Source: Ignavibacteria bacterium (GTDB lineage: Bacteria; Bacteroidota; Ignavibacteria; Tepidaquicellales; OLB5). Taken from it: a stretch of 41,842 nucleotides of DNA. The DNA is taken from assembly GCA_030835085.1 (NCBI GenBank), contig JAUQWQ010000143.1, positions 1 through 41,842 of the forward strand. Reading direction: 5' to 3'. Position 1 is the first letter of the stretch; every line of letters begins with the position of its first letter. Below are positions 13,546 to 41,116 of the stretch, piece by piece. Both the position numbers and the translations under genes were made by a program. A model generated the notes under the pieces. That model ran no database searches. It had not been told where the DNA came from and saw only the letters and a program-made list of their open reading frames with translations.

Positions 13546-13597
13546 AGCTGATTTCGTTAGTTTCACAGGAAATATATTAATTAATTATAAATAAAAA

Positions 13598-13616: not shown

Positions 13617-13643
13617 ATTAAGTCATTTAATTTAATAATTGAA

Positions 13644-15110: not shown

Positions 15111-15176
15111 TTGAAAAGATTAATTATTGAAAGTGTTTTATAATCTTTTCTGCATATTCCCTAACTAATTGTACTA

Positions 15177-15208
15177 CAAAGATAATACAATTTTGGGGTA
15201 AAAATCCA
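15177..15208 (-). promoter_or_regulatory. Putative -7 promoter element of the cargo gene at 13644-15110
   Basis: On the minus strand, TATCTTTG (15184-15177) is an exact TAnnTTTG. The -33 position has only TGG (15208-15206) instead of TTG after 21 bases, so the upstream box is weak. The leader would be about 60 bases. Confidence 0.35.
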
Positions 15209-15344
15209 GAAAATATGGGTGTATTTCTAAAAATAGGCTGTAAACCTAAATCCACATTGATTTACGGTATAAAAATACTAACTAAAAAGGGTTAGATAGT
15301 TTGTAGGAGATTACCTTAGCGAAATATGGTGAATATAATAAAAA

Positions 15345-15367
15345 AACGCCGCTTTTTAAGCGGCGTT
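15345..15367 (-). terminator. Intrinsic terminator of the cargo gene ending at 15430
   Basis: AACGCCGCTT (15345-15354) and AAGCGGCGTT (15358-15367) form a perfect 10-bp stem with a TTT loop. It continues into T on the minus strand. Confidence 0.85.
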
Positions 15368-15429
15368 AGCAGTAACAATACGAAGGAGAAACAAAATTGT
15401 TAACTGTATTTCAGTTAATTTCTCCGGTA

Positions 15430-16677: not shown

Positions 16678-16786
16678 TTTTGTATCCTCCGTTTAGGGTT
16701 TTGTTTATAAAGAGTTATTGCTTTCTGCTATTTCTTTAATCTAATAATTTTTTATTGATATTGTATCATAGGGAAATCTTAATACA

Positions 16787-16818
16787 CAAAGTTAACTGAA
16801 AGGGGGTAGTAAATCAAT
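16787..16818 (-). promoter_or_regulatory. Putative -33/-7 promoter of the cargo gene at 15430-16677
   Basis: On the minus strand, ATTG (16818-16815), 20 bases, then TAACTTTG (16794-16787), an exact TAnnTTTG. The -33 context CTATTGA is the same as in the promoter at 13514-13545. Confidence 0.48.
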
Positions 16819-16846
16819 AGCGAAAATCGTTAATCTTTATTACTAA

Positions 16847-16878
16847 AAAAGCCGGGCAATTTGTATTGACCGGCTTTT
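16847..16878 (-). terminator. Intrinsic terminator of the cargo gene ending at 16895
   Basis: AAAAGCCGG (16847-16855) pairs with CCGGCTTTT (16870-16878). The inner CAAT/ATTG pairing extends the stem past one G-A mismatch to a TTGT loop. A T-run follows on the minus strand. Confidence 0.8.
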
Positions 16879-16894
16879 ATTGGAATTTACATTG

Positions 16895-18695: not shown

Positions 18696-19352
18696 TCAGC
18701 TGCCGGCTGCGATGAAGGATTTGTTCAGTAGTAAGAATTTTTCTTTTATAATCCTGCAGTTAGTAAAATATCCTTTTAACTTACTTTTCGTAAGCAGTGA
18801 ATTATTCTCCAGCAGTTCGATTGCTTCCTGTTTGCTTCCGCATTTTTTGAACCAGCCCATGTTAAACTTCGTAAGCATGTATATCTGCAAAGCACGCGGA
18901 AAGAACTGAAAGCAGGGGAATAAAAAATGCGGCTCAAAAGGAAAGTAGTACGAAGGGGTCTGTACAAAATATTTTTTACCTACCCTAGTTATCTCATCTG
19001 CCATTTTTTGTCTGCCGGTATGTAGCGGAATATGTTCAATTACAGAATTTGAAAATACTACGTCAAAGCTTTTATCAGCAAACTCAGATAGATCTGCAGC
19101 ATCACCTTTTACGAATATAAAATTGCCCCTGCGGGCATTGGCAGGTTCATCTATATTTAATATTGTTATTTCATATTCCGCTCTGTCATCAAACCCCATT
19201 TGTTTCCAGAAATCCTCTGTACCGCCAACATCCAGTATTGTGAGAGGCAGCGGAATATCTTTTATAAATTCACTGAAATATCGGAACCTGTTTCTGCGGA
19301 ATTTATTTGCAAGCGATGAGGGATCTGTATTATCTAAGATTTTTCTGAACAC
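18696..19352 (-). CDS. Class I SAM-dependent methyltransferase
   Basis: A 218-residue cytoplasmic methyltransferase of the Rossmann class. Motif I is ILDVGGTEDF (about residues 39-48). The acidic end of strand beta 2 is ILNIDEP, motif II-like GDAADL follows, and DVVFSNSVIEHI is the motif around strand beta 4. This resembles methyltransferases found in polysaccharide clusters, where they cap or decorate sugars, but the substrate cannot be read from sequence. The start is GTG at 19352, only 3 bases after the stop of the cargo gene upstream, so translation is probably coupled. It is the last gene of the long glycan-PorU operon. Confidence 0.82.
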   Translation of the reverse strand: MFRKILDNTDPSSLANKFRRNRFRYFSEFIKDIPLPLTILDVGGTEDFWKQMGFDDRAEYEITILNIDEPANARRGNFIFVKGDAADLSEFADKSFDVVFSNSVIEHIPLHTGRQKMADEITRVGKKYFVQTPSYYFPFEPHFLFPCFQFFPRALQIYMLTKFNMGWFKKCGSKQEAIELLENNSLLTKSKLKGYFTNCRIIKEKFLLLNKSFIAAGS

Positions 19353-19355
19353 AGC

Positions 19356-22043
19356 TTATTTAACAACAACCATCTTTTTTATATCACTAAATGAACCGGA
19401 AGTAAGCCTGAAGAAATATACCCCGCTGGAATACCCCGAGGCATTCCAGTTTACGCTGTACTTTCCGGGCTTAAGGGCTGTGTTCACCAGCACTGTTATT
19501 ATTCTGCCTGTGATATCATAAATGATAAGCTCTGTATTTGAATTAACGCCAGAGGGAATATCAAAATTAATATTGGTAACAGGGTTGAACGGGTTAGGGT
19601 AATTATTGTAAAGCATAAAATTATCTGGAATAATGGTGCTAATAGGTTCAATTCCTATAATCTGTGTTGTAAAACGCCAGGTAACAGACCATGGCCCGAA
19701 TCCGCCAACGTTGAATCCCCGTACACGCCAGTAATATATCGAGCTTCCCGATAATACTCCGGCTGGAATGGTAAACTGCGAAGGTGTTATGGTTGAATCA
19801 AGCAGTGTTGAATTGAATAATGAATCTGTTGAGACAAGTAATTTATAACCTGAAGTACCGAAAACATCATTCCAGTCAAGCGTAACATTCAGCGGCTGAT
19901 TAATTGCGCCGTTAGGGGGAGAAAGCAGAGTTGGTGCAGCAACCGGCGGTGAAATAACTGTGCGGAATTTCCATACCTGCGAATACGGACCCGTACCTGC
20001 GTTGTTAGAAGCATTTACACGCCAGAAATAAGTTGTGTTATTGCTCAAAACACCGCCAGGTACATTATACTGTGAAAAAGTTAAATCCCCCGCATTTATC
20101 AAATGCGGAATTGTAAAAGTTGAATCCGTTGAAAGCTGCACTCTGAATGTTGACGCGTACTGAACGCTATCCCAGTTTAATGTGGGAGTGGTTGAAATTT
20201 CTATTGCACCGTTCGGTGGATCAACAAGCTGAGGTGCAACCGGGGGAATTAGCAGTGTCATGAACCTGAAAGGTTCAGACCAGGGTCCTGTGCCAATTGG
20301 ATTTGTTGTTCTTACACGCCAGAAATATGTTTGTACGTTTGTAAGTAATCCTGCTCTTACGGTCACCTGAGATACATTAAAGCCTGTTGTATCCCATAAC
20401 TGGGATGTGAAGGTTGAATCAAGCGAGACCTGTACCTGGTAATTTGTTGCCGAAATATCTTCAACCCAGTCTAAAAGGGGAGTGAGGCTTACCCCCGTAG
20501 CAAAATTTGCCGGTGTAAGCAAAGTAGGCGCTGCGGGCATACCAAGCAATGTTGTGAAATTAAATATCGCTGACCACGGGCCCGTACCTGCAATATTAGT
20601 TGCGTTCACCCGCCAGTAATACCTTAAATTATTATTCAGCGGTGGAGTAATTAAATTCAAAAAAGAATGTATTATTCCCGAAGTCCATACCGGAGGATCA
20701 GTAAATGATGTATCAAGTGCAGCCTGCAGTGTGTATGAATCAGCCGGTGATGTACTGTCCCAGTCAAAAAAAGGAGTGAGCGAAATATTTGAAGCGCCGT
20801 TAACCGGAGTAATCAGTCCCGGGGCATTTGGCAAAGCTACAATTGTTCTGAAATTAAAATTAGCGGACCATGGACCTATTCCGCCTTCACTTTGACCGCG
20901 AACACGCCAGTAATAACGAATGTTATTGTTCAATTCCCCCGAAGGGACGTTCAGCATACTCAACATAACAAACGAAGTATCCAGCTCTGGTGAAGTATAA
21001 TTTGTATCTGTATCAATTTGCACCTGGTAAGTTTTTGCTGTAGTTATGGAATCCCAGTCAAGAAGTGGCGTTAAGCTTACGTTCAGTGCCCCGTTCACAG
21101 GTAAAGTCAGATTTGGAGAGCCCGGTATCTGGAATCCGCCATTTGTTGTTTTTATAATGTTACCGCCATCCCCGGAAATAAAACCCGTCTGAATGTTCAC
21201 AAAACTTACTCCGTACCAATCCTGGCCGGCTACAGGACTTACCTGTGATACCCAGCTAAGACCGCCGTTAGTTGTCCGAATGATAAAGTTACTGTGTGAT
21301 GAACCTGTACCTGTGTTTGCATTTAAGAAACTGAAATTAGTTATTCTCCCGGTAATTCCGGAATTCAGTGTATTCCAGTTCAGTCCACCGTTTGTAGTTT
21401 TGATCAGTACACCGCCTTCACCCCCTGAGTAAATTATATTATCCGTAACAACCCCCAGGGCAAAAAGCGGCGCTGTTACCCCGGTGGAAAGGGTTTCCCA
21501 ATTTGTGCCGGCGTTAGTTGTTTTTAAAATGGTGCCGGTAAATCCTGAAACGAACCCTGTAGAAGGATCAATAAAATAAATGTTATTCAGGTTTTGTGTT
21601 GTACCTGTATTCAATGAGCTCCAGGTTGAGCCGCCGTTAGTGGTTTTATCAATTTCTCCGCCGGTAGCACACAGGTAACCTGTATTAGCATCAATAAAAA
21701 ATGTACCCCTGAAAAGCTTCACAGGTGCTCCCGGGTTTGACCAGCTGGTTCCGCCATTGGTAGTTTTGTAGAAAACTGCGTCGCCGCATATAAATCCGGT
21801 GTTCGAATTCAAAAACCGTACATCGTACAGGTTATCAGCCGGAACAGATTGTACCGTCCAGTTCAGTCCGCCATTGGTTGTTCTCCTTATTGTTCCCAAA
21901 AGCCCTATTGCAGTACCTGTATTAGCATCAATAAAGTATATATTCGTTAGTACATTTGTTGTCCCGCTGGTTTGTGTAAACCATTGGGAATAAATTCCCG
22001 CGGAAAAGATAACAACTGATAATATGGATAATATTAATTTCAA
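19356..22043 (-). CDS. T9SS cargo: Ycf48 propeller plus five fibronectin-III domains and sorting domain
   Basis: An 895-residue secreted protein. The signal peptide spans residues 1-19 (GIYSQ). Residues about 20-305 contain seven Ycf48/BNR blades (TGxxxGxxGTIxKTTNGGxxW). Five fibronectin-III-like domains of about 97 residues follow at about 308-800, each with LxxPxNGAxxxSxTPxLDWD at its start and YYWRVxAxNxxGxGPWS near its end. The sorting domain has NNYPNPFNPVTNINF, IIYDITGRIITVLV, YSSGVYFFRL and MVVVK. The frame begins with TTG at 22043, directly adjoining the TAG stop of porU, so the two are almost certainly translated together. It is the only cargo gene fused into the glycan-PorU operon. 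The start codon is a little uncertain, but no ATG lies nearby. Confidence 0.86.
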   Translation of the reverse strand: MKLILSILSVVIFSAGIYSQWFTQTSGTTNVLTNIYFIDANTGTAIGLLGTIRRTTNGGLNWTVQSVPADNLYDVRFLNSNTGFICGDAVFYKTTNGGTSWSNPGAPVKLFRGTFFIDANTGYLCATGGEIDKTTNGGSTWSSLNTGTTQNLNNIYFIDPSTGFVSGFTGTILKTTNAGTNWETLSTGVTAPLFALGVVTDNIIYSGGEGGVLIKTTNGGLNWNTLNSGITGRITNFSFLNANTGTGSSHSNFIIRTTNGGLSWVSQVSPVAGQDWYGVSFVNIQTGFISGDGGNIIKTTNGGFQIPGSPNLTLPVNGALNVSLTPLLDWDSITTAKTYQVQIDTDTNYTSPELDTSFVMLSMLNVPSGELNNNIRYYWRVRGQSEGGIGPWSANFNFRTIVALPNAPGLITPVNGASNISLTPFFDWDSTSPADSYTLQAALDTSFTDPPVWTSGIIHSFLNLITPPLNNNLRYYWRVNATNIAGTGPWSAIFNFTTLLGMPAAPTLLTPANFATGVSLTPLLDWVEDISATNYQVQVSLDSTFTSQLWDTTGFNVSQVTVRAGLLTNVQTYFWRVRTTNPIGTGPWSEPFRFMTLLIPPVAPQLVDPPNGAIEISTTPTLNWDSVQYASTFRVQLSTDSTFTIPHLINAGDLTFSQYNVPGGVLSNNTTYFWRVNASNNAGTGPYSQVWKFRTVISPPVAAPTLLSPPNGAINQPLNVTLDWNDVFGTSGYKLLVSTDSLFNSTLLDSTITPSQFTIPAGVLSGSSIYYWRVRGFNVGGFGPWSVTWRFTTQIIGIEPISTIIPDNFMLYNNYPNPFNPVTNINFDIPSGVNSNTELIIYDITGRIITVLVNTALKPGKYSVNWNASGYSSGVYFFRLTSGSFSDIKKMVVVK

Positions 22044-25000
22044 CTATTTTAAAATTGCTAATTTCTGGATGGATGTTTCAGTCTTGCCGCTTCCTTCAAG
22101 TATCAGTTTATACAAATATATGCCATTTGCCATTGTTTCGCCATCACCATCTTTGCCATCCCAGAAGACCTGGTTAAACCCTACTCTTGCGGGGGCTTTT
22201 ACATCCCTCACAAGCCTGCCGGCAACGGTATAAATCTTAATTATACATGATTGCGGAGCTTCTGATGCAAAAAGATCGAAAGTGAAATATGTATCACCCT
22301 GCATCGGGTTTGGATAGTTAAATAAATTGCGTACTGCAAAATCATAACTTACATATGCGTTATCAATGAGAGTATCCCTGTTGCCGTCCTTATCAGTGCC
22401 GTAGTATTGCAGTAAATGCATACCTGCTGAGAGCTCCGGCTTATATAACACGCTTGTTTTCAGATTGCCGTCATTAACTGCGGTGAAAGTTATCTCTGTA
22501 TTCTGCTGCCCAGCATTAAAATAATTTATTCGTTTTCCGTCAAGTTTAATGTAAATTCCCGTTGTATCTGCAATACTGTATTCCAGCTTGCTTTCATCGT
22601 AGAACCTGAAAAGAATTTCCGGCTTTGCTGCGATAAGATCTCCGGGAAGTATTTTTATGCCGTCGTATGTAACATCTATTGAAGGGCCTGTGGAATCACC
22701 CAGTATAATAATATCTGTGAATGCGAAATTATTGAACGGGTAATAATCGTTCTGTTCATTAAGCATCGATACTTCAAAATTGATATCGAGCGTATCAACT
22801 GTTGACTGCGGATTCTTTAAACCCTGGGTGTTGAAAGTCACTTCTGATAAATAACTGCTATCCGGCATTAAAGGAGTATAAATGGTATCCTGTTTTAAGG
22901 TAACTAATCCGTTATAAACATTCGCTGTCCATTTATATACTATTGTACCTGCAGGTACGAAACCAATATTATGATTCCTAACACTTATGGTAACATTAGC
23001 GCCTTCATCAACAACTGTATCGCTGCGTATGAATGAATAATTATCAGGAATAATTTCTGCCGGCGGGGTGTATTTAAAGTACAATGACCTGAATTCGGGT
23101 GACTCTACTCCTGAAAGTGTATCAATTTCTATGCTTGCCCTCAGTCTGAGCTCGGGATAAATGAAGCTGTTTACAGTATCGAGATTTGAAAATGCATTTG
23201 AGCTTAGATTTGAATACAGCGCTACAGGAGTCCCGAAAATGTTTATTCCTGTTACATCAAAATTGACAAATGAACCTCCGGGCAAGAGCCTGTTCCAGGA
23301 AAAGTATTTCCAGCGGTGCGCGGGTCCCATTGAAAAATCTATGGTACCAAATGTATTTAAGAATGTTGAGTTCACTGTCGCAAATGAAGGGCAATAAAAA
23401 TCCTGGCAGGAAGGATCTGGTGTATTGAATTCTTCAGCCCCGGGTATCGGGGAAGAATTCAGAATACCGATAAACGCCCAAGTGTAAAAAGAAGCGAATG
23501 AAGTAACTGAATCAACAAGCTGACTTCCGAACTGTTTGAATTTCAGTTTACAATCCGGTCTGAGGCTGTCGGAATTCGGTGACCAGGATGATAAAGCAAC
23601 CATCAAATAATGTGTTGTATCAAAAGTATTTAAAAAGCTTAGAACTGAATCAGATGAAGTTGCAGAGTTCATGTAAAAATTCCTGAATTCAAGCAGTTTG
23701 CCCGTCAGCCTTCTGGCTTTAATAATATTTAAACCTGGGAAACTTCCTCCATCTATAAAGAACTGGTAACCGGGCATCGTAAAGTATGATGCCTGGTAAC
23801 CATTGTTACCATGTGATTTTACCTGCAATACTCCTTCGCTGTTATTAAGCTTAAAACCGCTGCCTGTATAATAAACTCCTGAATATGAATTTGCCGGGAA
23901 TTGTCCCAATAACCGGGGATACAATGTTACAATGGAATCGCTGTTAACAGATTTTGATGTAGTTTGCAAAATCGCAGGATTATAAACGAATTTATTTGTT
24001 TCTGACCATCCTGTACTATCACCATTTATGATAGCGTTTGTTCTCCAGTAATATACTTTGTTTGAATCAAGTACCGGAATTTTGTAACGGACTCTGTTCG
24101 ATACCCCGCTGATACTGTTGTTGGAATAGTTTAGCAATAGTGAACCGAAAGATTGAGCTGTATCAACCTGCAAAATTACTTTTACATTGTTCGCTCTAAG
24201 GTCAATCTGCGGATTTAATCCAACGAACTCAACGGAATCTTCAGAAATCACTGAATTATCAATTGGTTTTAGCGGAGTGTATGAAATATTTCTAAGTGGC
24301 AGCGGCAGGACAATTACGTTGTTCGATGGGTCCTCATTCGGGTAAATGTTGTTATGGTCAAGGGTAGCTTTCAATGAATAATTCCCTATAGTATCAATGC
24401 TGAATGTATATGAAAGCGTATCATAATATTTAAAGTTAACAATATTTGTATCCTTATAACGGAATTGCTGACCATTCTTTAATATTTCAAATCTTACAGC
24501 ACAGTTTGGAGCAAACAAACCGTAATTCTTGGGGAAAATTTTCCACGTTACTGTTTCGCCAACTAGTGGATACTGGTCTGTTATCCGGTAGTCAGTTTGA
24601 CCGATAACAAATTCAGGACCAATTGGCAGAAGAAGTTTGGAAGCCGGGTCACCAAGCAGATTATAACAATTTATCATGTTTCTCACCTGGAAGTTCGATG
24701 AATCTTGTAACATTCTGTTGTTGGCAAACTGCACCAGTGAACCGAGTCTTCGGATCGTATCCTGTGAAAGGCCGATGAAAATATGTTTATTTATTTCATT
24801 TCCCGAACCTGAAAAGCTCCATCCTGTTGTACCCAGAAACCCAAGAGCTCCGCGGTTAGATGTATATACGAACTTTTCTCCAAAACTGCGGAAATTTGCT
24901 TCAGCGTTAATTCCGGTAAAGCATGTCATGCTCAGAACCAGTGGCAGACGGTTACCATTGGAAAGCGTCTGGGGGTCTTCAAGACCCAGCTCCCAGTTCT

Positions 25001-26918
25001 GGCTTGCCGCATGGCCGATAAAATTTACGATCAAACCGCCCCGGTTAATGGCATTCTTTATGGAATCAGCATAATTAAACGTAATGAACCCTGCTGAATC
25101 ATTCCTGTATATTTTTTCAGCTATTCCTGATATCGGCGCAGGTGTGATATAATTATTTACCAGTTCATTTGACTGTGTCTGGTACTGAATCTGCTCTATG
25201 CGGTTAGGGCCCCCGGTTATCATATTAAAATTCTTCCACCAGCTGGCAGGCGGTTCGTTTTCATATGCAATTATCTTATTCACCATATCCTGCGCTTCCT
25301 GCTGGGTATAAGCAGGCAGCCTGCCGATCGCTGCCTGGTGAAAATAAGTAAAACCATTCATATTAAAATTTACGAAATATCCGTCACTTGGCGGATTTCC
25401 ATAAACCGGAATAAGATTCCTGTAAAAGCTGTTTGTAAGCCTGTTATTTTTGGGGTCAAGCGAGCCTCTTCCAAGTAATGCAATATACCCGACTTTTGGA
25501 AGCTGCCAGTTATCATAAACGTGTTTTACAAATCTGCGTATTGCTACAGGATTTTCTATACCGTAATTGAAGATATCAATAATATCATCAACAGGTGCTT
25601 TAAAAGAACGGAAATTATCCCTGGTTTGCCTGTATGAACGAAGCTGCTCTGCCTGTGATTCAAAAAGCCTGTTATATATTACAATATAGTCGGCTCCGTT
25701 TGATGATGCAGTCAGATTCTGTACCTGCCTTGGCTGGCTGCGGAATGGCCGTTGTGTAATAACCTGGTTATATATTTCAAAATCACCGTTTTGCTTCCCC
25801 GTGAAAAATAACGTATCAGCTTCATTGCTGATACTTGTAATTTTTATATTGTTCTTTACATCGTAAATTGAAAATGGAGCTGATGAGTTAAATCCGGTTA
25901 CCCTGAATACTGCGCTTGATGTATCGGTGGAATTCAGAGTAATTCTGCAATGGGAATTAGTAAACTTAAACTGTTTTGGATAGGTAAGTTCGATCAGATC
26001 AAAAAAAAGGCTTGGCGTAGCGTTTGGATTTGTAAATGTCGGAGTGTATGTTACTGAAACCGTATTCTGCTGGTTGTTAAAAAGACTGCTTTGGAAAGAT
26101 ACAGATGTATCAAATCTTTCATAGTCATTTCTTGCTAGTGTAATAATTGTTGAGGAATTTAGGGTAAGTACCAGTTTATGCTCATTAAAAGAAGTATCCC
26201 TTGAATTTGGATATGCGAACACACGGAAAGTACAGTTTGCCGGCAATGAATTGAGCAGCGGCAGAGAAAACACCCTGCTAATTGAATAACCGTATACTGC
26301 TGTCAGGTTACGCCAGTACCATCCTTCTCCGGAGATCTTTTCATTGTTAAAGAATCTGAAATCTGTGTTAGAATTAATTGTTTGCCCAAGACTGTATACT
26401 GAATCAGCTTCAAGGTGAATTTTTTCCAAAGAATAATTTTGCGGGTACTGATTAGTAACGGAATAAGTAGAGATCGTGTATCTTAAACCGTTTGTACCAT
26501 CCCAGCCTATCCAGTAAACGCTGGTATCAGAATAAAGGTCATTGTATTCATCTGTAGAATAATCAAAAACAGTAGGTCCAAAGCTCGCAAGGTAGGTAGT
26601 TGTTAAGCCGCCATAATTTCTGTGACCGTAAAAATCAATAAAATCATTCGCGTCAAAAGAACCATCTTGTTCTCCTTCAAAATAAACCGGAATTTCGCTG
26701 CCTTTGTAGTAAACTTTAACCGTACGGGGATCTATGTTCGAGGTATTTATGCCGGAATTCGTAAATTCATTACGGGTGATCCTGTTAATTCCATCACCTG
26801 ACACGTACATTTTCAGGTATGTTTTATTTGGTGTTATCCAGTTAAAGTTCTGGCTTAATACTGTTCCTGAAAGCAGTATAAATACTGCAATAAAGTAACG
26901 AAATTTTATGGCAATCAT
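22044..26918 (-). CDS. porU: PorU-like type IX secretion sortase (C25 family cysteine peptidase)
   Basis: In characterised T9SS systems PorU is the surface cysteine peptidase that removes the C-terminal sorting domain of cargo and joins the new end to anionic lipopolysaccharide. The 1624-residue protein has a signal peptide (about 1-22) and an N-terminal PorU region (KVYYKGSEIPVYFEGE...SFDANDFIDFYGHRN). The gingipain-type C25 domain includes YIALLGRGSLDP, a probable catalytic His636 in NFIGHAASQNW and Cys666 in LSMTCFTG, 30 residues apart. Long beta-rich regions follow. From about residue 1530 it ends in its own sorting-like domain (NYPNPMQGDTYFTF, KIYTVAGRLVRDV), as PorU does. The His motif reads GHA where C25 enzymes usually have GHG. 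Its ATG overlaps the preceding glycosyltransferase stop by 4 bases. Confidence 0.88.
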   Translation of the reverse strand: MIAIKFRYFIAVFILLSGTVLSQNFNWITPNKTYLKMYVSGDGINRITRNEFTNSGINTSNIDPRTVKVYYKGSEIPVYFEGEQDGSFDANDFIDFYGHRNYGGLTTTYLASFGPTVFDYSTDEYNDLYSDTSVYWIGWDGTNGLRYTISTYSVTNQYPQNYSLEKIHLEADSVYSLGQTINSNTDFRFFNNEKISGEGWYWRNLTAVYGYSISRVFSLPLLNSLPANCTFRVFAYPNSRDTSFNEHKLVLTLNSSTIITLARNDYERFDTSVSFQSSLFNNQQNTVSVTYTPTFTNPNATPSLFFDLIELTYPKQFKFTNSHCRITLNSTDTSSAVFRVTGFNSSAPFSIYDVKNNIKITSISNEADTLFFTGKQNGDFEIYNQVITQRPFRSQPRQVQNLTASSNGADYIVIYNRLFESQAEQLRSYRQTRDNFRSFKAPVDDIIDIFNYGIENPVAIRRFVKHVYDNWQLPKVGYIALLGRGSLDPKNNRLTNSFYRNLIPVYGNPPSDGYFVNFNMNGFTYFHQAAIGRLPAYTQQEAQDMVNKIIAYENEPPASWWKNFNMITGGPNRIEQIQYQTQSNELVNNYITPAPISGIAEKIYRNDSAGFITFNYADSIKNAINRGGLIVNFIGHAASQNWELGLEDPQTLSNGNRLPLVLSMTCFTGINAEANFRSFGEKFVYTSNRGALGFLGTTGWSFSGSGNEINKHIFIGLSQDTIRRLGSLVQFANNRMLQDSSNFQVRNMINCYNLLGDPASKLLLPIGPEFVIGQTDYRITDQYPLVGETVTWKIFPKNYGLFAPNCAVRFEILKNGQQFRYKDTNIVNFKYYDTLSYTFSIDTIGNYSLKATLDHNNIYPNEDPSNNVIVLPLPLRNISYTPLKPIDNSVISEDSVEFVGLNPQIDLRANNVKVILQVDTAQSFGSLLLNYSNNSISGVSNRVRYKIPVLDSNKVYYWRTNAIINGDSTGWSETNKFVYNPAILQTTSKSVNSDSIVTLYPRLLGQFPANSYSGVYYTGSGFKLNNSEGVLQVKSHGNNGYQASYFTMPGYQFFIDGGSFPGLNIIKARRLTGKLLEFRNFYMNSATSSDSVLSFLNTFDTTHYLMVALSSWSPNSDSLRPDCKLKFKQFGSQLVDSVTSFASFYTWAFIGILNSSPIPGAEEFNTPDPSCQDFYCPSFATVNSTFLNTFGTIDFSMGPAHRWKYFSWNRLLPGGSFVNFDVTGINIFGTPVALYSNLSSNAFSNLDTVNSFIYPELRLRASIEIDTLSGVESPEFRSLYFKYTPPAEIIPDNYSFIRSDTVVDEGANVTISVRNHNIGFVPAGTIVYKWTANVYNGLVTLKQDTIYTPLMPDSSYLSEVTFNTQGLKNPQSTVDTLDINFEVSMLNEQNDYYPFNNFAFTDIIILGDSTGPSIDVTYDGIKILPGDLIAAKPEILFRFYDESKLEYSIADTTGIYIKLDGKRINYFNAGQQNTEITFTAVNDGNLKTSVLYKPELSAGMHLLQYYGTDKDGNRDTLIDNAYVSYDFAVRNLFNYPNPMQGDTYFTFDLFASEAPQSCIIKIYTVAGRLVRDVKAPARVGFNQVFWDGKDGDGETMANGIYLYKLILEGSGKTETSIQKLAILK

Positions 26919-27652
26919 TCTGCCAATTTACGCATTTTTATACTAATAATTCTATATAAAAATAGTGGGTTTCCGATGATATACCTCCCGAAAAATTTGA
27001 ACGGATTTGTAAAAAATCTCCACAGCCATTCAAAACCCAAAGCTCTTAAAAATACCGGACCCCGTTTTTTATTCCCGGCGAAGACCTTTATTCCTTCACC
27101 AACACAAATTATTACTTTACTGTTCAGATTGCCGCGGTATTTTGCTGTCCAGTTTTCCTGTAATGGGGTACCAAGACCTATAATTAGAATATCGGCCGAG
27201 TGGCTGTTGATATCATCTATCACTTCGTCATCAGAAAAGTTATACCCGTTATGAAAACCTGAGATTATTAAATCCGGATGATTTGTTGAAATCCTGCTGA
27301 GTGTTTCATTATCGTGTCCTAAAAAATAATAACTATATTTATTTTTTATTGAGTTGTTTATCAGCAGGGGATAGAAGTCACTGCCGGTAAATCTTTGATC
27401 CGAACCGAAAGGTGTATTCAGCATCCGGGCAGCGAGCCTTATTCCGGTTCCGTCCGGGTGGATCACATCAAATTTTTTAAGTGACTTTACCAGTTCAGGG
27501 TATCTAAATGATAAATTTATGCTGTTTGCATTAGCATATGCAATTGCAGTTTGTTTGTTGTTTTTAATATTTATATCTATTGCAGAAAGAAGATCGGAAA
27601 AACCTGTATCAGTTATTATAATGCCGTTTATATTCAGGGAATTACTTTGCAT
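26915..27652 (-). CDS. WecG/TagA/CpsF family glycosyltransferase (GT26)
   Basis: Members of this family transfer a sugar, often N-acetylmannosamine, its uronic acid or glucose, onto a lipid-linked monosaccharide at the inner face of the membrane, usually the second step of glycan assembly. The 245 residues include HPDGTGIRLAARML with the probable catalytic Asp67, the RFTGSDFYP motif, DILIIGLGTPLQENW, and the basic C-terminal appendage FEWLWRFFTNPFKFFGRY that holds these enzymes to the membrane. It starts with ATG 2 bases after the preceding GT4 stop and overlaps porU by 4 bases (ATGA), so translation of the two is coupled. No initiating transferase is present in the window. Confidence 0.9.
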   Translation of the reverse strand: MQSNSLNINGIIITDTGFSDLLSAIDINIKNNKQTAIAYANANSINLSFRYPELVKSLKKFDVIHPDGTGIRLAARMLNTPFGSDQRFTGSDFYPLLINNSIKNKYSYYFLGHDNETLSRISTNHPDLIISGFHNGYNFSDDEVIDDINSHSADILIIGLGTPLQENWTAKYRGNLNSKVIICVGEGIKVFAGNKKRGPVFLRALGFEWLWRFFTNPFKFFGRYIIGNPLFLYRIISIKMRKLAE

Positions 27653-27654
27653 TA

Positions 27655-28731
27655 TCAGCGCTGAACAAGTGACCTATAAAGTTGCTCAATTTTCGGAATG
27701 ATAAATTCCTGTGTGTAATAGTTTACAACATCTCTGTGAAGGTTTTCTGCACAGTATTCAGCAAAATTTTTATCATTTTTAAATTTCATAATTTTCCCTG
27801 CCAGTTCCTGCTCGCTGCCCGCCTTAAATAACAGCCCGTTTACAGAATCTTTAATGAGTTCTCCAATACCGTCAACATCTGCACCTATAAACGGAACCCT
27901 GTGAAGCCCGGATTGAAGCATGAAGTTAGGGAAAGGATCGCGGGTAGAAGGAAGTACGCATATATCAGCTACAAGGAAATACCGCAGAAGGTTCTTTTGC
28001 GGTACGATAATTTCCACATTAAGATCTTTGCTTGCTATATACCTTCTGTAATTTAAATCATTGTTGCCTTCACCTACTAATATCAGACCAATGTTTTCCT
28101 TCTTTAGCAGGTTTAGTGCTTTTAACAGGGTTTCGAAATCCTTATCATTATGGAACCGGCCAATAGCCAGAATTAAGAAAAATTTACCGTGCTGCCTGAA
28201 CCTTGGAGAAATAATTTCCAGATCATGTATTTCTTCTGTATCAGTAAAGTTATTTATCAGGGTTATTTTATCCTTATTCACAGAAAATTTATTTAAAAGC
28301 ATTTTCTTCACGGAATTGCTGACAGCAATAATTTTATCTGAACGGTATTCTATGTTATATTTTCGGTTTACAATACTTAGTGATGTGAATACCGATGCAG
28401 GTTTATCCTTCTTAATAAGTTTTATTGCCTGCAATGCAAGAATCTCAGTCAGCCTGTGATGTGTATGCACTATGCTGATATCATTATCAATGATAAATTT
28501 CCGGATTTCTTTTATGTTCCTGGCAATTATAATGGGATTTTTTGATTTTAAACTTTTTATTTTAAGGAATTCTATTTTTTTCTCTTCAAGCCTTTCAAGA
28601 GAGTCACCCCCGTTTGTTATAACAAATACATTGTGCTTTTTACTGAGATATTTAGAAAGCAGGTAAACGTAATAAGACCTTCCGCAGGCATAATTAAAAT
28701 CCGGGGTAATATGTAAAATATTATATTTCAA
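27655..28731 (-). CDS. Glycosyltransferase, GT4-like
   Basis: A 358-residue GT-B fold glycosyltransferase. The N-terminal Rossmann half starts with ILHITPDFNYACGRSYYVYLLSKYL, the acceptor-side glycine-containing motif. The donor half has LAIGRFHNDKDFETLLKALNLL (about residues 188-210) and LILVGEGNND. The usual GT4 E-x7-E pattern is altered: the segment reads STRDPFPNFMLQSGLHRVPFIG, with Asp and Gln where Glu is expected. Activity or donor type may therefore differ from the classic enzymes. The start is TTG at 28731, 20 bases after the previous gene, and no nearby ATG exists. It is an inner-membrane-associated step in the glycan operon. The transferred sugar cannot be inferred. Confidence 0.85.
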   Translation of the reverse strand: MKYNILHITPDFNYACGRSYYVYLLSKYLSKKHNVFVITNGGDSLERLEEKKIEFLKIKSLKSKNPIIIARNIKEIRKFIIDNDISIVHTHHRLTEILALQAIKLIKKDKPASVFTSLSIVNRKYNIEYRSDKIIAVSNSVKKMLLNKFSVNKDKITLINNFTDTEEIHDLEIISPRFRQHGKFFLILAIGRFHNDKDFETLLKALNLLKKENIGLILVGEGNNDLNYRRYIASKDLNVEIIVPQKNLLRYFLVADICVLPSTRDPFPNFMLQSGLHRVPFIGADVDGIGELIKDSVNGLLFKAGSEQELAGKIMKFKNDKNFAEYCAENLHRDVVNYYTQEFIIPKIEQLYRSLVQR

Positions 28732-28751
28732 CTGGTTAAAGTAATACTTTC

Positions 28752-30392
28752 TCAGTATAATTTCCTGAAACCAAGTTCTTCAGCAAGAAAACATTCTATC
28801 TTATCAGATAAGATCTTAAGTTTCATTCGAATTGGTTTATCTACATTATTGAATTCAGTGAATTCTATCAATATATCCTCATTTTTAAATCCTGTACGTA
28901 TCCTTTCGCTGTTGTATCCTTCGATATAGAAAAAATGTCTTGGCGCAGTAGCTTTTATTTCAAATTCTGTTGCCGATATACTTTTGTAGTCAAGTTTAGC
29001 TCCAATAGAACTTTCCTGGAAAGCAGCTGTCTGAATTACATCATTGATCGTATCATTGATATTAAATTGTTTATTTTTCCAGAAGTTATACGCACCTGTC
29101 ATTTTATCGAACATAAACGTTTGTTTATACCTGCCGGGATTACCGATCAGTACTATTTTTTTCCCGGGAGTGTGCGGGGCTTCTATCAGTTTATTTACAT
29201 TCACGATTGCTTTATCGTATGATGTTTTCCAGTCAGTAACGGTTACAGCTGACCAGAAACACCATAATGCTGCAGCTGCTGTAAACGATACCCTAAGTAC
29301 ATTTTTATTAAGTTTCAGGCTAAGTCTTCTTTGCTCACTGTAAAGATAGAGTACAAATATTGTTAATATAACAAAAGGAAGAAGTATCATCTGAGGGCGG
29401 ATGTAACCAACAATTGCATATGGTGTTATCATTACAAAAAAGAATACAAGCAGCTGCCCGATTATACGGTATATATCGGTTTTAACAGCTATCCATATCA
29501 GGTAAAAACCGGAACCGTATAAAATTAACAGGTATAGAAATATTATCTTATTATCGTTTCTAAGCAGGTAATTAATTGTGATAAAATCCATTGGGATAGA
29601 CAGCGCTATCAATGACCTGGCGTAAACACCGGGTGCATTGCTCAACGGAAAAGCCTGGTAGAGTGTAGCTATTTCTGTCATGTTGTTTCCAAGTATAAGT
29701 ATCCTGAAAACAAAATAGCTTATAAGCATCACAGTAAATATTATCAATAACGGGATAGTTTTTTTGATCCCTGTTTTTCCTTTTCTGAAATATTCAATAA
29801 AGAAAATAACGGCAGGGAAAGTTATGGCAAGCTCTTTGGTAAATAAAGCCATAAAAAATGTAAAAATTGAAATATAGAAGAACATTTTTTTACCTGAGTC
29901 ACTGTATATCAGAAATACAAGTATGGATACTACATAAAAAAACCCGCATATAAGGTCAACCCTTGCAGCCATCCAGCAGATATTATTTATATTGTTAGGA
30001 TATAACAATATTGTGAGCGAACAAATTAGCGATACAGACGCTCTTTTTGTAAGATAAAGCACTGTTAATCCTGCTGTAAATGAAATAAAATATAACAGCA
30101 TCAGGTTCTGTATCCTGAACCATAAAAAATTATCAGGCGCAAATCCAAACAAAGTGCTCAGGTTAACGCTTTTTTCCAGCGATAAATAGTAAAATGGCCT
30201 GATGTGAAATGCATTGGTAAAGGGAAGGTGACCGGTAAGTTTCTGGTAAAATGTGGAATTTACCGCATCGTAGATATTCAGGTAGTCATCTGATAATAAA
30301 CCAATACTGAAAAATCCAAGTATATGCAGCGCCGCTGCATATACAGCAAATATCCCCAGGGAATAATATATAAATTTTCGGGACTCTTTCAA
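28752..30392 (-). CDS. Polytopic membrane protein, GT-C-like glycosyltransferase candidate
   Basis: A 546-residue inner-membrane protein with about ten to twelve hydrophobic helices (roughly residues 8-375) and a soluble C-terminal domain of about 150 residues. The first periplasmic loop contains LLSDDYLNIYDAV (Asp35 and Asp36) followed by HIRPFYYLSLE, the arrangement of a paired acid plus an Arg-Pro motif seen in GT39/ArnT-like GT-C transferases, which use polyprenyl-linked sugars. It could instead be the repeat-unit polymerase, which is otherwise missing from the operon. It begins with TTG at 30392, and the upstream GT2 gene ends 18 bases before. The GT-C class is inferred and no family was firmly recognised. 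Confidence 0.65.
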   Translation of the reverse strand: MKESRKFIYYSLGIFAVYAAALHILGFFSIGLLSDDYLNIYDAVNSTFYQKLTGHLPFTNAFHIRPFYYLSLEKSVNLSTLFGFAPDNFLWFRIQNLMLLYFISFTAGLTVLYLTKRASVSLICSLTILLYPNNINNICWMAARVDLICGFFYVVSILVFLIYSDSGKKMFFYISIFTFFMALFTKELAITFPAVIFFIEYFRKGKTGIKKTIPLLIIFTVMLISYFVFRILILGNNMTEIATLYQAFPLSNAPGVYARSLIALSIPMDFITINYLLRNDNKIIFLYLLILYGSGFYLIWIAVKTDIYRIIGQLLVFFFVMITPYAIVGYIRPQMILLPFVILTIFVLYLYSEQRRLSLKLNKNVLRVSFTAAAALWCFWSAVTVTDWKTSYDKAIVNVNKLIEAPHTPGKKIVLIGNPGRYKQTFMFDKMTGAYNFWKNKQFNINDTINDVIQTAAFQESSIGAKLDYKSISATEFEIKATAPRHFFYIEGYNSERIRTGFKNEDILIEFTEFNNVDKPIRMKLKILSDKIECFLAEELGFRKLY

Positions 30393-30410
30393 ATTACAAT
30401 CAATGTAAAA

Positions 30411-31361
30411 TTATTTCAATAATAGAGACAATTCCTTTTTAAAACTGCTCTTTTCTTTAAAGAAACTTTTTATCCGGTATTTTAAATGTGAATCTATAAA
30501 CTTAAAGAAATATTTATCAGGTAAAAATGTAGTAAAATATGCAGTTAAATTCTTCAATGAAAAAGAATTCCTGAAATATCCCCGCGCGCTTTGCCTTGAG
30601 CCGTAGAAATAGTTTAGCCATGCGGCTACCGATGCCCAGTAGAAATGATCTCCTTTGGATTTTGAATCAACCATCCTGCGGAAAGCATTGGTATTCAGCA
30701 TATCATACAGGTTACTTCTATTGCCTCGGGCTGTCCTTGAGTTCTCCCGCAGCCTCGTATAAACAAGGTATTCAGGCATATTCGCAAACCTGTACTCATC
30801 CCGTAACCTGTAGAGCAGCTCATAATCTTCATTACTGTTAAGTGATTCATTAAATTTGTATTTATCAAAGATACTTTTTCTGCATATCATCGCAGATTGA
30901 TTTATCGGGTTATGTAAATTTAGATATTTATATATTTCGTTATGACTGAGCGGTTCATTCAGAAAAAAAAGGATTTTTGCGGGGTCAGAAAAATATATTG
31001 ACCATGAAGAGAGTATATCAATTTCTCTGTTGTTTTCAAGGAACTGTACCTGAGCTCCAAGTCTTTGAGGGGGATTTAAATCATCAGCGTCAATCCTTGC
31101 GATCCATTCATATTTACACAATCCAATTCCGTAATTCAGGGCTGCAGAAGTGCCGTTATGTTCAACCTTTTTGTACTTTATTCTTTTATCAGCAAAACTC
31201 TTAATAACCTGTTCTGTTTCATCAGTTGAACCGTCATCTATTATTATGAACTCGAAATTTGTATATGTCTGATTCAATATGCTTTTTACAGCTGCAGAAA
31301 TATACTTTCCGCAGTTATATGCTGGCATTAGTACTGAAATATTTTTTATTTTTTCAGACAT
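30411..31361 (-). CDS. Family 2 glycosyltransferase
   Basis: A 316-residue GT-A fold transferase of family GT2. The N terminus has SVLMPAYNCGKYISAAVKSILNQTY and FIIIDDGSTDETE, which bind the nucleotide. The metal-binding DxD is DAD at residues 91-93 (RIDADDLNPPQRL). Catalytic-region residues follow with NEDYELLYRL around 185. The C-terminal 90 residues are basic and may touch the membrane. It would add one sugar to the lipid-linked glycan in the cytoplasm. Its ATG at 31361 lies inside the end of the upstream GT4 gene (16-base overlap), supporting operon membership. Donor and linkage cannot be read from the sequence. Confidence 0.9.
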   Translation of the reverse strand: MSEKIKNISVLMPAYNCGKYISAAVKSILNQTYTNFEFIIIDDGSTDETEQVIKSFADKRIKYKKVEHNGTSAALNYGIGLCKYEWIARIDADDLNPPQRLGAQVQFLENNREIDILSSWSIYFSDPAKILFFLNEPLSHNEIYKYLNLHNPINQSAMICRKSIFDKYKFNESLNSNEDYELLYRLRDEYRFANMPEYLVYTRLRENSRTARGNRSNLYDMLNTNAFRRMVDSKSKGDHFYWASVAAWLNYFYGSRQSARGYFRNSFSLKNLTAYFTTFLPDKYFFKFIDSHLKYRIKSFFKEKSSFKKELSLLLK

Positions 31362-32416
31362 TTATTATATAAAGCAATATGTTTTTGTATCATTACGGGT
31401 ATTGAAAATTCTTTCTTTGTAAATTCATAAAAATTTTCTGAAAGAGGAGAGTATTTTCCGATATCAGATATAACTTCAGCCATTAAATTACACAGGTTTT
31501 CTGAGCTGTTTTCTTTATAAACCAATCCGTTCACACCATGTTTGATCACGTCTTCTGCTCCGGCAAAATCTGAGCTTATTACCAGTGTATTTGTTGCGCC
31601 TGCTTCTGTAATAATGGCAGGGAAACCTTCATTGGGAGTGCGTGAAGCATTTACAAGCACATGTGCAGTACTGAGGAATGTATACATATCATTCACTTTA
31701 CCTGAAAACTTCACCTTGTTTCCGAGAGAACTATTCAGTTCTTTCAGTTCACTTTCAAGTTCACCTTCACCTGCAATATAGAAATCTGCTTTTTCTGTAA
31801 GTGATACCGGCAGTTTGTTTACAGCATGAATAAAAATATCTAGTCCTTTGCTGAAAGTAAACCTGGAAGCAGAGACTATTTTAATTTTACTGGCAGGAGA
31901 TTTCAATGTTAAATATTCATTTACCGGAACACCGCACCTGATAAACGCAATATCATCTCTTTTCGCAATCTTGTTTTCCAGCAAGAATCTTTGTATATGT
32001 TCATTTATTGCAATATACTTATCAGCATTAAAATGTTTTAATCTGCCAATATCCTGCAGTATACCATGGTTTGTCTGAATTGCAGTCTTTCTGGCAAGCT
32101 GAGATGCCCTGCGTGCTATAGCTGCCCCAAAATGATAATGCGAATGCATTATGTCAATTTCATTTTTACGAATAAATCGCGTCAGGAAATTTATAGCGGA
32201 AATGAAACCCGAAAAGCTGCGGTTTATATGAAGAAATCTTTCATCTGAAATTATATTTACATCAATATCGCTGAAACGGTTTATACCGTTGCCGCCCCCG
32301 CAGATTATCCATAGCTTAACTTCACCGGTTGCTGCAAGCCCGCGTGTTAAATGCAGAATATGGTTGGTAACGCCGCATGTATATCTGAGTTCATTTACTA
32401 GAAACAGAATATTCAT
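31346..32416 (-). CDS. Glycosyltransferase, GT4
   Basis: A 356-residue GT-B glycosyltransferase. The N-terminal half begins NILFLVNELRYTCGVTNHILHLTRGLA and has HSHYHFGAAIARRASQ. The C-terminal GT4 domain contains VSASRFTFSKGLDIFIHAV, FYIAGEGELESELK and the canonical E-x7-E in NEGFPAIITEAGATNTLVISSD. It is the most canonical GT4 of the three in this operon, so normal retaining transferase activity is expected. Its ATG overlaps the stop of the upstream gene by 4 bases (ATGA), and its own end overlaps the GT2 start by 16 bases. Confidence 0.91.
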   Translation of the reverse strand: MNILFLVNELRYTCGVTNHILHLTRGLAATGEVKLWIICGGGNGINRFSDIDVNIISDERFLHINRSFSGFISAINFLTRFIRKNEIDIMHSHYHFGAAIARRASQLARKTAIQTNHGILQDIGRLKHFNADKYIAINEHIQRFLLENKIAKRDDIAFIRCGVPVNEYLTLKSPASKIKIVSASRFTFSKGLDIFIHAVNKLPVSLTEKADFYIAGEGELESELKELNSSLGNKVKFSGKVNDMYTFLSTAHVLVNASRTPNEGFPAIITEAGATNTLVISSDFAGAEDVIKHGVNGLVYKENSSENLCNLMAEVISDIGKYSPLSENFYEFTKKEFSIPVMIQKHIALYNKCLKK

Positions 32417-33531
32417 ACCGCAATTTCCCGGTATAGTTCATAATACATCCTGTAAACATTATAATTGCTCAGTTCACCTGCTGTTTTTACTGCATTTTTG
32501 CGTAAATCTGTAATTTCAATATTATCCATTTTTGCAATCTCTTTCAATATGCCCGGCAGACCTGCCTCATTATAATGATCAAAAACGAATCCATTCACTC
32601 CGTTTTGAATATACCTGCTGATACCGGTTTGCGAAGTAATTACAGGAATTAATCCTGATGCCATTGCTTCGGCAGTTGAGGTGGAAAATGTATCATATTT
32701 ATTTAAAGATAAGAAAACATCTTTATCTTCGTAAAACCCGGGAAGCTCACTTACAGTGAGCAATTGATTTTCAGTAAATGTTATATTTTCGGTTGAAGGC
32801 AGGCTGATTTTTATATCAGTTAATATAAAAAAATCAATTGGGATTTCAATTCTTTCTAATGATCTTTCAAGTAATTCTATTGCGGAATAATTCAGTTCAT
32901 TTTTATAATGCATAACTGCTTTTAATCTGCCTGAAAAGTCAGGTTTTAATTTATTACTGAAAAATTCTGAGTTTACTCCGTTTGGAAGTAATACAGCTTT
33001 ATTCTCCTCAATGCTATAATTATTCCCGGCAAGGTCTATCGTCATAACCGAAGGGAAAATAATTTTATCGGAATACTTCAGAAATATTTTTTCGCATAAC
33101 ATATCTTTGAACCTGTAGAAGGCAGGTAATTTTTTCAGTTCAGAGTTCTCATACCGGACTATTCCGTGTGAATTATACAATATCTTTACTCTAAATAACA
33201 TTTTGTAAATATAAAAAATTACCGCAAATCGCTCAAATGTAATTAAATGAATAATATCCGGGTGTCTTCTGCGAAGCTCCGGAATTATCCTGAATATCCC
33301 GAGTGTAATTATCCTCCCGTCAAGTGCTTCAGTTCGGCCAAATAGTTTTTTGAAAATTGAATATTTCCTTCCGTCAAAGAAATACTGCAGAAATACTGAA
33401 TTGTTATTCACATTGTGTTCTTCAAACACACTTTTGGCTGTCATCTCAGGTCCAGAAACAACTCCGCTTTCAGGATACCTGCCTGCGAACAAAACATTAA
33501 TATTATCATTTGCCCTTTTCAATACCCTCAA
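32413..33531 (-). CDS. Glycosyltransferase, GT4-like
   Basis: A 372-residue GT-B glycosyltransferase. The acceptor half has VLFAGRYPESGVVSGPEMTAKSVFEEH and HLITFERFAVIFYIYKMLFRVKILYNSHG. The donor half is shorter and diverged (KAVMHYKNELNYSAIELLERSL). The E-x7-E region reads KYDTFSTSTAEAMASGLIPV, keeping the second Glu but with Asp for the first. The end of the upstream methyltransferase gene overlaps its start by 26 bases. Only TTG codons (33531, or 33522 preceded by GAGGG) are available as starts, so the exact N terminus is uncertain. The donor sugar is unknown. Confidence 0.84.
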   Translation of the reverse strand: MRVLKRANDNINVLFAGRYPESGVVSGPEMTAKSVFEEHNVNNNSVFLQYFFDGRKYSIFKKLFGRTEALDGRIITLGIFRIIPELRRRHPDIIHLITFERFAVIFYIYKMLFRVKILYNSHGIVRYENSELKKLPAFYRFKDMLCEKIFLKYSDKIIFPSVMTIDLAGNNYSIEENKAVLLPNGVNSEFFSNKLKPDFSGRLKAVMHYKNELNYSAIELLERSLERIEIPIDFFILTDIKISLPSTENITFTENQLLTVSELPGFYEDKDVFLSLNKYDTFSTSTAEAMASGLIPVITSQTGISRYIQNGVNGFVFDHYNEAGLPGILKEIAKMDNIEITDLRKNAVKTAGELSNYNVYRMYYELYREIAV

Positions 33532-34168
33532 TTGTCTTCTTTAATCCCAGTCTGTGTTTTAAAAAATTTTTTACTCCGAAAAACCTTCCGTATTTTTTTG
33601 TGAATTTTATTTTTTCATTTGAAATCAAAACCACACTGAACTCACGCTGAGTCAGATCATAAAATGTTTTAATTTTATGATACCTGTATTTGGTAAAATC
33701 ATTGTTATACCATACGCTCCTGTGCGCCTCAAAAGGATTAATTTCCGTGCCTTCCTGTTCCCAGTACCTGCCAATCGGTATATTGATAAGCACATATTTA
33801 CCTCTTTGCAGTGCAAGTTCAATAAGCTTAATGCCATCTTCTTTGGTAAAATGCTCTATTACATCGCCAAAATTTATGAGGTCATATTTCTTTTCAGCAA
33901 ACTGTAAATGCTTCAGAGCGTTTTCTGTATAGATCTCATTGTAAAAATAACTGTGATAATCTTTTATATATCCCGGAAATATTTCAATGCCGTCTATTAC
34001 ACACTGCCAGTTACCGTCATATCTGCCATTATCCCATATTTCAAGGAACTCCCTGAAAAGAATTCCCCACCTCCCGAAACCGACACCTACATCAAGAATA
34101 GAATCTGGATCAAGCTTTCGTACGAGCTCTATATTATATGAAATGTTCTGCCAGTTTGATGTTCCCAT
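33506..34168 (-). CDS. Class I SAM-dependent methyltransferase
   Basis: A 220-residue cytoplasmic methyltransferase. Motif I is ILDVGVGFGRWG (about residues 24-35). The acidic loop is VIDGIEIFPGY, and DLINFGDVIEHFTKEDG is the motif following strand beta 4. The NPFEAHRSVWYNNDFTKY segment near residue 165 resembles small methyltransferases found in O-antigen clusters. It is a second methyltransferase besides that at 18696-19352, so the glycan may be methylated twice, or once internally and once as a chain cap. ATG at 34168 follows the flippase stop by 16 bases. Confidence 0.82.
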   Translation of the reverse strand: MGTSNWQNISYNIELVRKLDPDSILDVGVGFGRWGILFREFLEIWDNGRYDGNWQCVIDGIEIFPGYIKDYHSYFYNEIYTENALKHLQFAEKKYDLINFGDVIEHFTKEDGIKLIELALQRGKYVLINIPIGRYWEQEGTEINPFEAHRSVWYNNDFTKYRYHKIKTFYDLTQREFSVVLISNEKIKFTKKYGRFFGVKNFLKHRLGLKKTIEGIEKGK

Positions 34169-34184
34169 TAATCTTTGAGCTTGT

Positions 34185-35447
34185 TTATGTTTTCTTGGAC
34201 TGCAAGTTAACCAATATTTTCTTCAGGTAGTACCACTCAAGGGCAAAAATAAAAAATTCAGTTATTACTGTTAATACTGCCGATGCTGTTATTCCGTATT
34301 TTGGGATAAGGAACGCATTCAGAACCACGTTCATTATCAGTGCGTATAGAGTAATAAACATTACTATCTTGAAATATCCCATTCCGTTGAGAATTATTCC
34401 AGTGAGGTTATTTAGACCCATAGCAATTATCCCAATTGAAAGAATACGCAGAATATTTACTGAATTTTCGAATTTGCCGGTATAAAAAGCAGTTATGATA
34501 AATTCAGCGAAAACAAATAAAATTACTGAACAAATGATACATATAATGCTTACCAGCATTGTATGTTCTTTAAGGAATTTCATAATGGCAGCCGGTTCCC
34601 TGTGCAGTTCGGCAACCCTTGTGAAACCGCTCACTAGCAAAAAGGAAAACGCAATTGATGATGATTTAAATAAACCGTATGCGATGCTGTAAAAAGCAGC
34701 TTCATCGAAACTGCGCAGTTTGGATATCAGAAGCAGATCGATCTTGTCGTACAGCAGGTTGAAAACAACTGCAATTCCCAGAGGTAATGAAATTGCCAGT
34801 ATCTTCTGTATTCCTGAAAATGAAAAGTATTTCAATGATAGCCTGATCTCATTTTTGCACAGTATAATAACAGATATTACGAGATTGGAAGCGATGCCTG
34901 TAAACATAACCAGCAGAAGGCTCCTTTCTGTCATTGAAAATAAATATATTCCGGGGATAATTACTGCTAATACTATGATTCTCGGAAGAATGAATGACAG
35001 AAACTGCTTTTTATATTCGTTAATTCCCGATAACGTTTTATTATTTACAGTCACTAAAAAAGAAGAATACATCATCAGCGAAATTATGATAAACAAACTG
35101 TAAGGAATATCCGGATATATGATAAAAACCGCAGCCGAGCCCAGCGTGAAATACAGTACCATTAATAATGAACCAAACAGGAACACCCGGCTGTAAATCT
35201 CTGAAGCGGTAGAACGGTTTACAGCAATTTCACGCTGAATATAGATGGGCAGTCCAAGATCGAATACAGATATCAATACAATGCTTAAAGTTAAAAGGGT
35301 TACTATCTGCCCGTAAATTTCGGTTGAAAAATTCCGGGCCAATAGCAGCATAACGATAAATGAAAATATCTTATCACTTAAATTGAGCAAAAAGATATAT
35401 TTACTTCCTGCCAGTAAGCTTTTATATTTACTTAAATTAATTGCCAA
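34185..35447 (-). CDS. Wzx-type oligosaccharide flippase
   Basis: Polysaccharide transporter of the MOP superfamily that moves a polyprenyl-linked oligosaccharide from the inner to the outer face of the inner membrane. The 420-residue protein has about twelve membrane helices with the usual opening YIFLLNLSDKIFSFIVMLLLARNFSTEIYG, in which the N-terminal helix carries the ARN/Tyr-Gly pattern. Further signs are FDLGLPIYIQREIAVNR and internal helices with GIASNLVISVI. The first gene of the operon, it starts with TTG at 35447. No ATG is available before the first helix. Its putative promoter lies 40-70 bases upstream. Confidence 0.9.
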   Translation of the reverse strand: MAINLSKYKSLLAGSKYIFLLNLSDKIFSFIVMLLLARNFSTEIYGQIVTLLTLSIVLISVFDLGLPIYIQREIAVNRSTASEIYSRVFLFGSLLMVLYFTLGSAAVFIIYPDIPYSLFIIISLMMYSSFLVTVNNKTLSGINEYKKQFLSFILPRIIVLAVIIPGIYLFSMTERSLLLVMFTGIASNLVISVIILCKNEIRLSLKYFSFSGIQKILAISLPLGIAVVFNLLYDKIDLLLISKLRSFDEAAFYSIAYGLFKSSSIAFSFLLVSGFTRVAELHREPAAIMKFLKEHTMLVSIICIICSVILFVFAEFIITAFYTGKFENSVNILRILSIGIIAMGLNNLTGIILNGMGYFKIVMFITLYALIMNVVLNAFLIPKYGITASAVLTVITEFFIFALEWYYLKKILVNLQSKKT

Positions 35448-37890: not shown

Positions 37891-37896
37891 TCTATT

Positions 37897-40062: not shown

Positions 40063-40068
40063 ATTCAG

Positions 40069-41115: not shown

Positions 41116-41116
41116 A

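Follow-up and report, generated by a model that had tools for sequence, protein, structure and literature searches.

In the few bacteria in which it has been studied, PorU of the type IX secretion system (T9SS) attaches secreted proteins to one lipopolysaccharide-type glycan, and it took over two decades to approach the question of what this anchor is (PMC7468200). In Porphyromonas gingivalis, clustering of the A-LPS genes with porU is not described in PMC7468200 or PMC13086638, and the C-terminal domain (CTD) of PorZ, a protein of the attachment complex, is retained uncleaved (PMC8545088). Two further described groups are relevant here. The first is the family covered by NF052324, annotated as a putative type IX secretion system sortase PorU2, and the second is the exosortase/PEP-CTERM systems of exopolysaccharide clusters, which Veith et al. 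compared with T9SS linking-sugar genes (PMC7468200). In the openly accessible journal literature on PorU, PorU2, PorV2 and C25 paralogues, no description of the gene arrangement reported here was found.

The locus described here lies in a 41,842-nucleotide stretch of DNA from a bacterium of the largely uncultured Ignavibacteria, referred to as the window. It consists of eleven open reading frames on the minus strand, read from 35447 to 18696 (Table 1), and an earlier note on this DNA had described the same run; all eleven frames, their limits and their domain content were recovered as it gave them. In transcription order the gaps are 16, -26, -4, -16, 18, 20, 2, -4, 0 and 3 bp, so that, as had been claimed, none exceeds 20 bp and several junctions overlap, the 4-bp overlaps falling between the two adjacent GT4 genes and between the WecG gene and the C25 gene (ATGA), with 0 bp between the C25 gene and the cargo gene. 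Internal terminators and promoters were sought within the run without any clear excess; terminator-like sites numbered 18 against 12.8 +/- 3.7 in shuffled sequences, which is barely an excess.

Table 1. Genes of the minus-strand run, listed in order of transcription, with the evidence for each assignment.
Feature	Coordinates	Strand	Evidence
Wzx/MATE-type flippase (420 aa) at the start of the run	34185..35447	-	Polysacc_synt 7.8e-15, MatE 7.6e-10; position kept in family f1
Putative methyltransferase, 220 aa	33506..34168	-	Weak Methyltransf_23 match, E 0.0015; second position conserved
GT4 glycosyltransferase, 372 aa	32413..33531	-	Glycos_transf_1 7.5e-12
GT4 glycosyltransferase, 356 aa	31346..32416	-	Glycos_transf_1 7e-29
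GT2 glycosyltransferase, 316 aa	30411..31361	-	Glycos_transf_2 2.3e-35
GT-C fold membrane glycosyltransferase, 546 aa	28752..30392	-	AlphaFold2 model; Foldseek; PMT_2 match of a relative, 3.9e-4
GT4 glycosyltransferase, 358 aa	27655..28731	-	Glycos_transf_1 8.6e-24
WecG/TagA/CpsF-family glycosyltransferase, 245 aa	26915..27652	-	PF03808 8.2e-42; adjoins POR2 in related genomes
POR2, PorU2-like C25 sortase-type protein, 1624 aa	22044..26918	-	NF052324 368 bits, NF033707 338 bits
T9SS type A cargo, 895 aa	19356..22043	-	YCF48-type propeller, fibronectin-like repeats, Por secretion tail
Methyltransferase (218 aa) at the end of the run	18696..19352	-	Methyltransf_11 1.1e-8; last position conserved in f1

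On either side of the run (12107-18301 and 35575-39177) lie genes for six more T9SS CTD proteins, some of which have YCF48-type propellers, and positions 39187-41181 encode a pair of BPD_transp_2 permeases from an ABC transporter of the branched-chain amino-acid type. This permease pair is also found upstream of the run in several relatives, and other genes occupy that position in others.

With a flippase and a set of glycosyltransferases, the run has the composition of a Wzx-dependent lipid-linked glycan pathway. Pfam gave no match for the 546-residue membrane protein, whose AlphaFold2 model (pLDDT 89.7, pTM 0.90) was matched by Foldseek to GT-C glycosyltransferases and oligosaccharyltransferases, among them ALG12, OST/PglB and ArnT; no polymerase or ligase was named among the 50 matches listed, a result that does not exclude a Wzy or WaaL role. 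Neither a Wzy polymerase nor a WaaL ligase was seen within the operon. An initiating phosphoglycosyltransferase is likewise absent from the run, as the earlier note had observed. Elsewhere in the genome the search for an initiating transferase gave five matches to PF02397, and the sole PF00953 gene is, from its sequence, a predicted MraY. None of the P. gingivalis linking-sugar pathway genes is present in the operon, and a genome-wide search for a VimA-type gene returned weak family matches (72 bits, where the cut-off is 260) that are unlinked to POR2.

The C25 gene of the window had been taken for the type IX sortase PorU. Three C25 genes are encoded in the genome, which measures 4.05 Mb, is 99% complete and by sequence lies closest to metagenome-assembled genomes of Ignavibacteria. 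The canonical PorU is on another contig (C202), where it scores 922 bits against NF033707 and is followed by PorV (273 bits) and an M6-like gene, a porU-porV locus which is kept in the related genomes examined. PorZ (contig C159, 359 bits) and SprA are also encoded elsewhere. The C25 protein of the window is therefore a second enzyme. Its 338-bit match to NF033707 is what speaks for its being the genome's PorU and the T9SS attachment module, but this falls below the cut-off of 420 bits, both genes coexist in genomes of the same family, and they fall into clades that are separated with full support; with the orthologue placed beside porV, this identification is already refuted and is given next to no probability. 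In place of PorU, the best NCBIfam match of POR2 is the PorU2 model NF052324, which aligns over profile positions 4-879 of 879 with the N-terminal 870 residues of POR2, although the score is below the 450-bit cut-off, which is exceeded in none of 59 genomes. POR2 is about 26% identical to porU from the same genomes, and a Pedobacter PorU2 (761 bits) is nested within the POR2 clade. Based on the sub-cut-off scores, the separate clade and the Pedobacter member inside it, POR2 is read as a putative divergent paralogue of the PorU2 family. The similarly named PorV2 shows no clear co-distribution with it: PorV2-like genes (NF052325) that score below the cut-off are found in almost every relative, whether or not POR2 is there too, and the distribution does not support PorV2 as an obligate partner. 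A third C25 protein (L005:8688-11705) is gingipain-like, with a P-domain and a cargo-type CTD, and is encoded beside two-component regulators.

The earlier note had tied a PorU-type enzyme to lipid-linked glycan genes in this one genome, and comparison with relatives showed that the arrangement is not unique to it and that the tie is conserved across families. In the sister genomes of family f1, the family of the window, wherever contigs were long enough, the order of all eleven genes is kept down to about 60-70% POR2 identity, and the flanking genes change. Across the order the contents of the cluster vary, and WecG, which is usually single-copy, lies directly upstream of POR2 at most loci. 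Among 59 related genomes (POR2 being called at 280 bits or more, or as a contig-edge fragment), 46 carry both genes, 12 carry neither and one has POR2 alone, at a contig end (Fisher 1e-11, uncorrected for shared ancestry). By family, 6 of 14 have both and 8 neither (p 3e-4, likewise uncorrected). One of the 12 genomes scored as having neither, G052, has a distant POR2 which the tree places within the clade.

Proximity follows the same pattern, as POR2 and WecG are close together in 39 of the 41 genomes of the same order that have both. WecG is no more than about 1.5 kb from a POR2 in all 14 testable f1 genomes and in 25 of the 27 family f2 genomes that have WecG, the two f2 exceptions being fragmented assemblies; family f3 has the two genes at separate places. 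At 70 non-redundant first-copy POR2 loci, a glycosyltransferase was found within three genes upstream or two downstream in 58, and WecG within two genes in 44. The 12 loci lacking nearby glycosyltransferase genes belong mainly to one sub-clade and to family f3. None of 13 canonical porU loci, a small control, had glycosyltransferases of those types, and none had WecG. Sugar genes are not entirely lacking around canonical porU, since a GT9 heptosyltransferase gene (L004:13140-14243) is found one gene upstream of it in f1, though not in f2. Glycosyltransferase content differs between families, as would be expected had mobile clusters in a glycan hot-spot picked up a C25 gene by chance, but the adjacency of POR2 and WecG outlasts this shuffling, down to about 26% POR2 identity, and their presence and absence agree across the 14 families, which makes hitch-hiking very unlikely. 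The operon is real and is conserved beyond what the earlier note could know, and the case for linking a PorU-type enzyme functionally to glycan assembly is stronger than the note could make it.

WecG and glycosyltransferase genes at POR2 are also found in other families of Ignavibacteria and in metagenome-assembled genomes labelled Bacteroidota or Chlorobi. In three KSB1-like genomes (L117:8077-9063, L118:4697-5692 and L120:8221-9222) a WecA/TagO-type initiator lies directly upstream of POR2, replacing WecG. In the synthesis of lipid-linked glycans, enzymes of the WecA and WecG types work at the first and second sugars. A lipid-proximal step is the most constant neighbour of POR2, and this may point to a dependence of POR2 on the lipid-proximal portion of the glycan. 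As the linking sugar of P. gingivalis is proposed to lie at the distal end of the glycan (PMC13086638), the anchoring chemistry here may differ.

Family f2 has loci of other kinds, in which the place of the cargo gene is taken by a second POR2 or by an ABC exporter pair and an aminotransferase. At L050:188-4469 and L053:253-4536, POR2 is followed by an ABC-2 permease, an ABC ATPase and a DegT-type aminotransferase. At L047:1-7182 (also L032, L039, L041 and L052) the gene for a protein of 1900-2400 residues that contains five GT2 domains comes before additional GT2 genes and two POR2 genes in tandem, and these loci are a second kind of glycosyltransferase-POR2 cluster. Some f2 copies of POR2 appear split into two reading frames (L111, L092 and L096). 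The f2 clusters with an ABC-2/ABC exporter pair and no cargo, together with the restriction of the adjoining cargo gene to f1, would fit a role for POR2 in the assembly or release of polysaccharide, such as the processing of an export or adhesin protein, in which case its link would be to glycan export rather than to anchoring. We know of no polysaccharide pathway with a surface C25 enzyme, which counts against this reading. Ligation is the simpler explanation in view of the kinship of POR2 to PorU, which uses an LPS glycan as its acceptor (PMC13086638), and an export role is considered rather improbable.

The C25 domain of the POR2 protein spans residues 411-762, and the His636/Cys666 dyad is invariant in 57 POR2 and 13 PorU sequences. 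The top solved relative of the POR2 profile is P. gingivalis PorU (6za2, E 2e-44), matched over the catalytic domain and the last 220 residues. The CTD (approximately 1530-1624) is of the PorU type: with custom profiles the median POR2 scored 92 bits for PorU-CTD against 35 for cargo-CTD, a relation which is reversed in true cargo, and the window protein scored 88.5 against 28. In P. gingivalis the CTD of PorU, like that of PorZ, is retained uncleaved. A different reading of the same protein is that it is a T9SS-secreted surface protease or processing enzyme, co-regulated with a polysaccharide locus and trimming, for example, embedded proteins, which would join nothing to sugar. The C25 family includes gingipains, gingipain R2 is among the matches of POR2, the dyad alone does not tell a hydrolase from a transpeptidase, and the third C25 protein of this genome carries a cargo CTD. 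The CTD of POR2, however, is not of that cargo type, the match to PorU is far above that to gingipain R2 (4.5e-16), and across families POR2 stays tied to lipid-linked glycan genes and not to any substrate gene. A protease is therefore judged unlikely, while being the most serious of the alternatives.

POR2 also has a domain which PorU lacks. Residues of approximately 1027-1186 have a predicted FAM3/POMGnT1-stem fold (Z 19.4, rmsd 2.6 over 146 residues), an assignment backed by sequence (E 2.5e-8; identity about 19%), and this domain occurs in 102/102 POR2 proteins of the core set, in 23/32 of the distant ones and in 0/13 PorU. The fold is shared with FAM3 (ILEI) and with the stem domains of POMGnT1, which bind GlcNAc (PMC9802357). 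The POR2 residues aligned with the GlcNAc-contacting Arg129, Asp179 and Arg207 of POMGnT1 (PMC9802357) differ, so it is only the predicted fold that suggests a sugar ligand for the POR2 domain.

The earlier note had joined these genes into a self-contained anchor system with its own client. A cargo gene is indeed part of the run, and the encoded 895-residue protein is cargo-type by CTD profiles (TIGR04183 39.7 bits, cut-off 23). A dedicated client is not what the comparisons point to, as the genome has at least 150 CTD matches, a POR2-specialised CTD was sought in the co-encoded cargo with CTD profiles and not found, its CTD being ordinary, and the gene is conserved beside POR2 in f1 only. With an ordinary cargo of this distribution, and with SprA, PorV, PorZ and any initiating transferase coded elsewhere, 'self-contained' is too strong; that the protein is a client of POR2 is plausible. 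Since PorZ also has propellers, the 895-residue protein was considered as its equivalent, and this was rejected: it has a single YCF48 propeller where PorZ has two, its CTD is of the cargo type, and it is not among the PorZ matches, the true PorZ being the one on contig C159.

Taken together, we favour, with modest confidence, the reading that the run is an operon for glycan-linked surface anchoring with its own PorU paralogue, POR2 being a second T9SS sortase dedicated to the co-encoded glycan. An oligosaccharide would be built on a polyprenyl carrier in the cytoplasm, by WecG early and then by the GT4 and GT2 enzymes, with methyl additions. Wzx would flip it, the GT-C enzyme would add a sugar on the periplasmic side, and enzymes coded elsewhere would transfer it to an outer-membrane lipid. 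POR2 would be exported by Sec and the T9SS, stay at the surface through its PorU-type CTD and recognise the glycan, perhaps by the FAM3/POMGnT1-stem domain. With its Cys/His dyad it would then cleave the CTD of the cargo and link the shortened protein to an amino group of the operon's glycan, working alongside the ordinary PorU-PorV-PorZ complex.

Such a system would resemble the PorU/A-LPS anchor of P. gingivalis in its C25 dyad, its PorU-type CTD and its predicted lipopolysaccharide-type glycan acceptor. POR2 differs from that PorU in its extra domains, its coexistence with PorU and its position in a glycan operon. This position, with a C-terminal sorting enzyme coded within a glycan assembly cluster, may best be read as analogous to that of exosortases in exopolysaccharide clusters, although those are inner-membrane enzymes which are unrelated to C25 and use another sorting signal.

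We tentatively propose, while stopping just short of calling it probable, that Ignavibacteria, KSB1-like bacteria and their relatives have at least two parallel surface sortases, PorU and POR2s each with its own co-encoded glycan, which could send cargo to different anchors. If this is true, more pairings of a sortase with a glycan would be represented by the tandem POR2 pairs and alternative glycosyltransferase clusters of family f2, including the five-GT2-domain one. A paralogue of PorU whose gene accompanies a glycan operon in several families offers a genetic handle on anchor sugars outside Porphyromonas and an initial clue to the function of the PorU2 group, and it raises the prospect that more than one route of protein-to-glycan ligation exists in T9SS bacteria.
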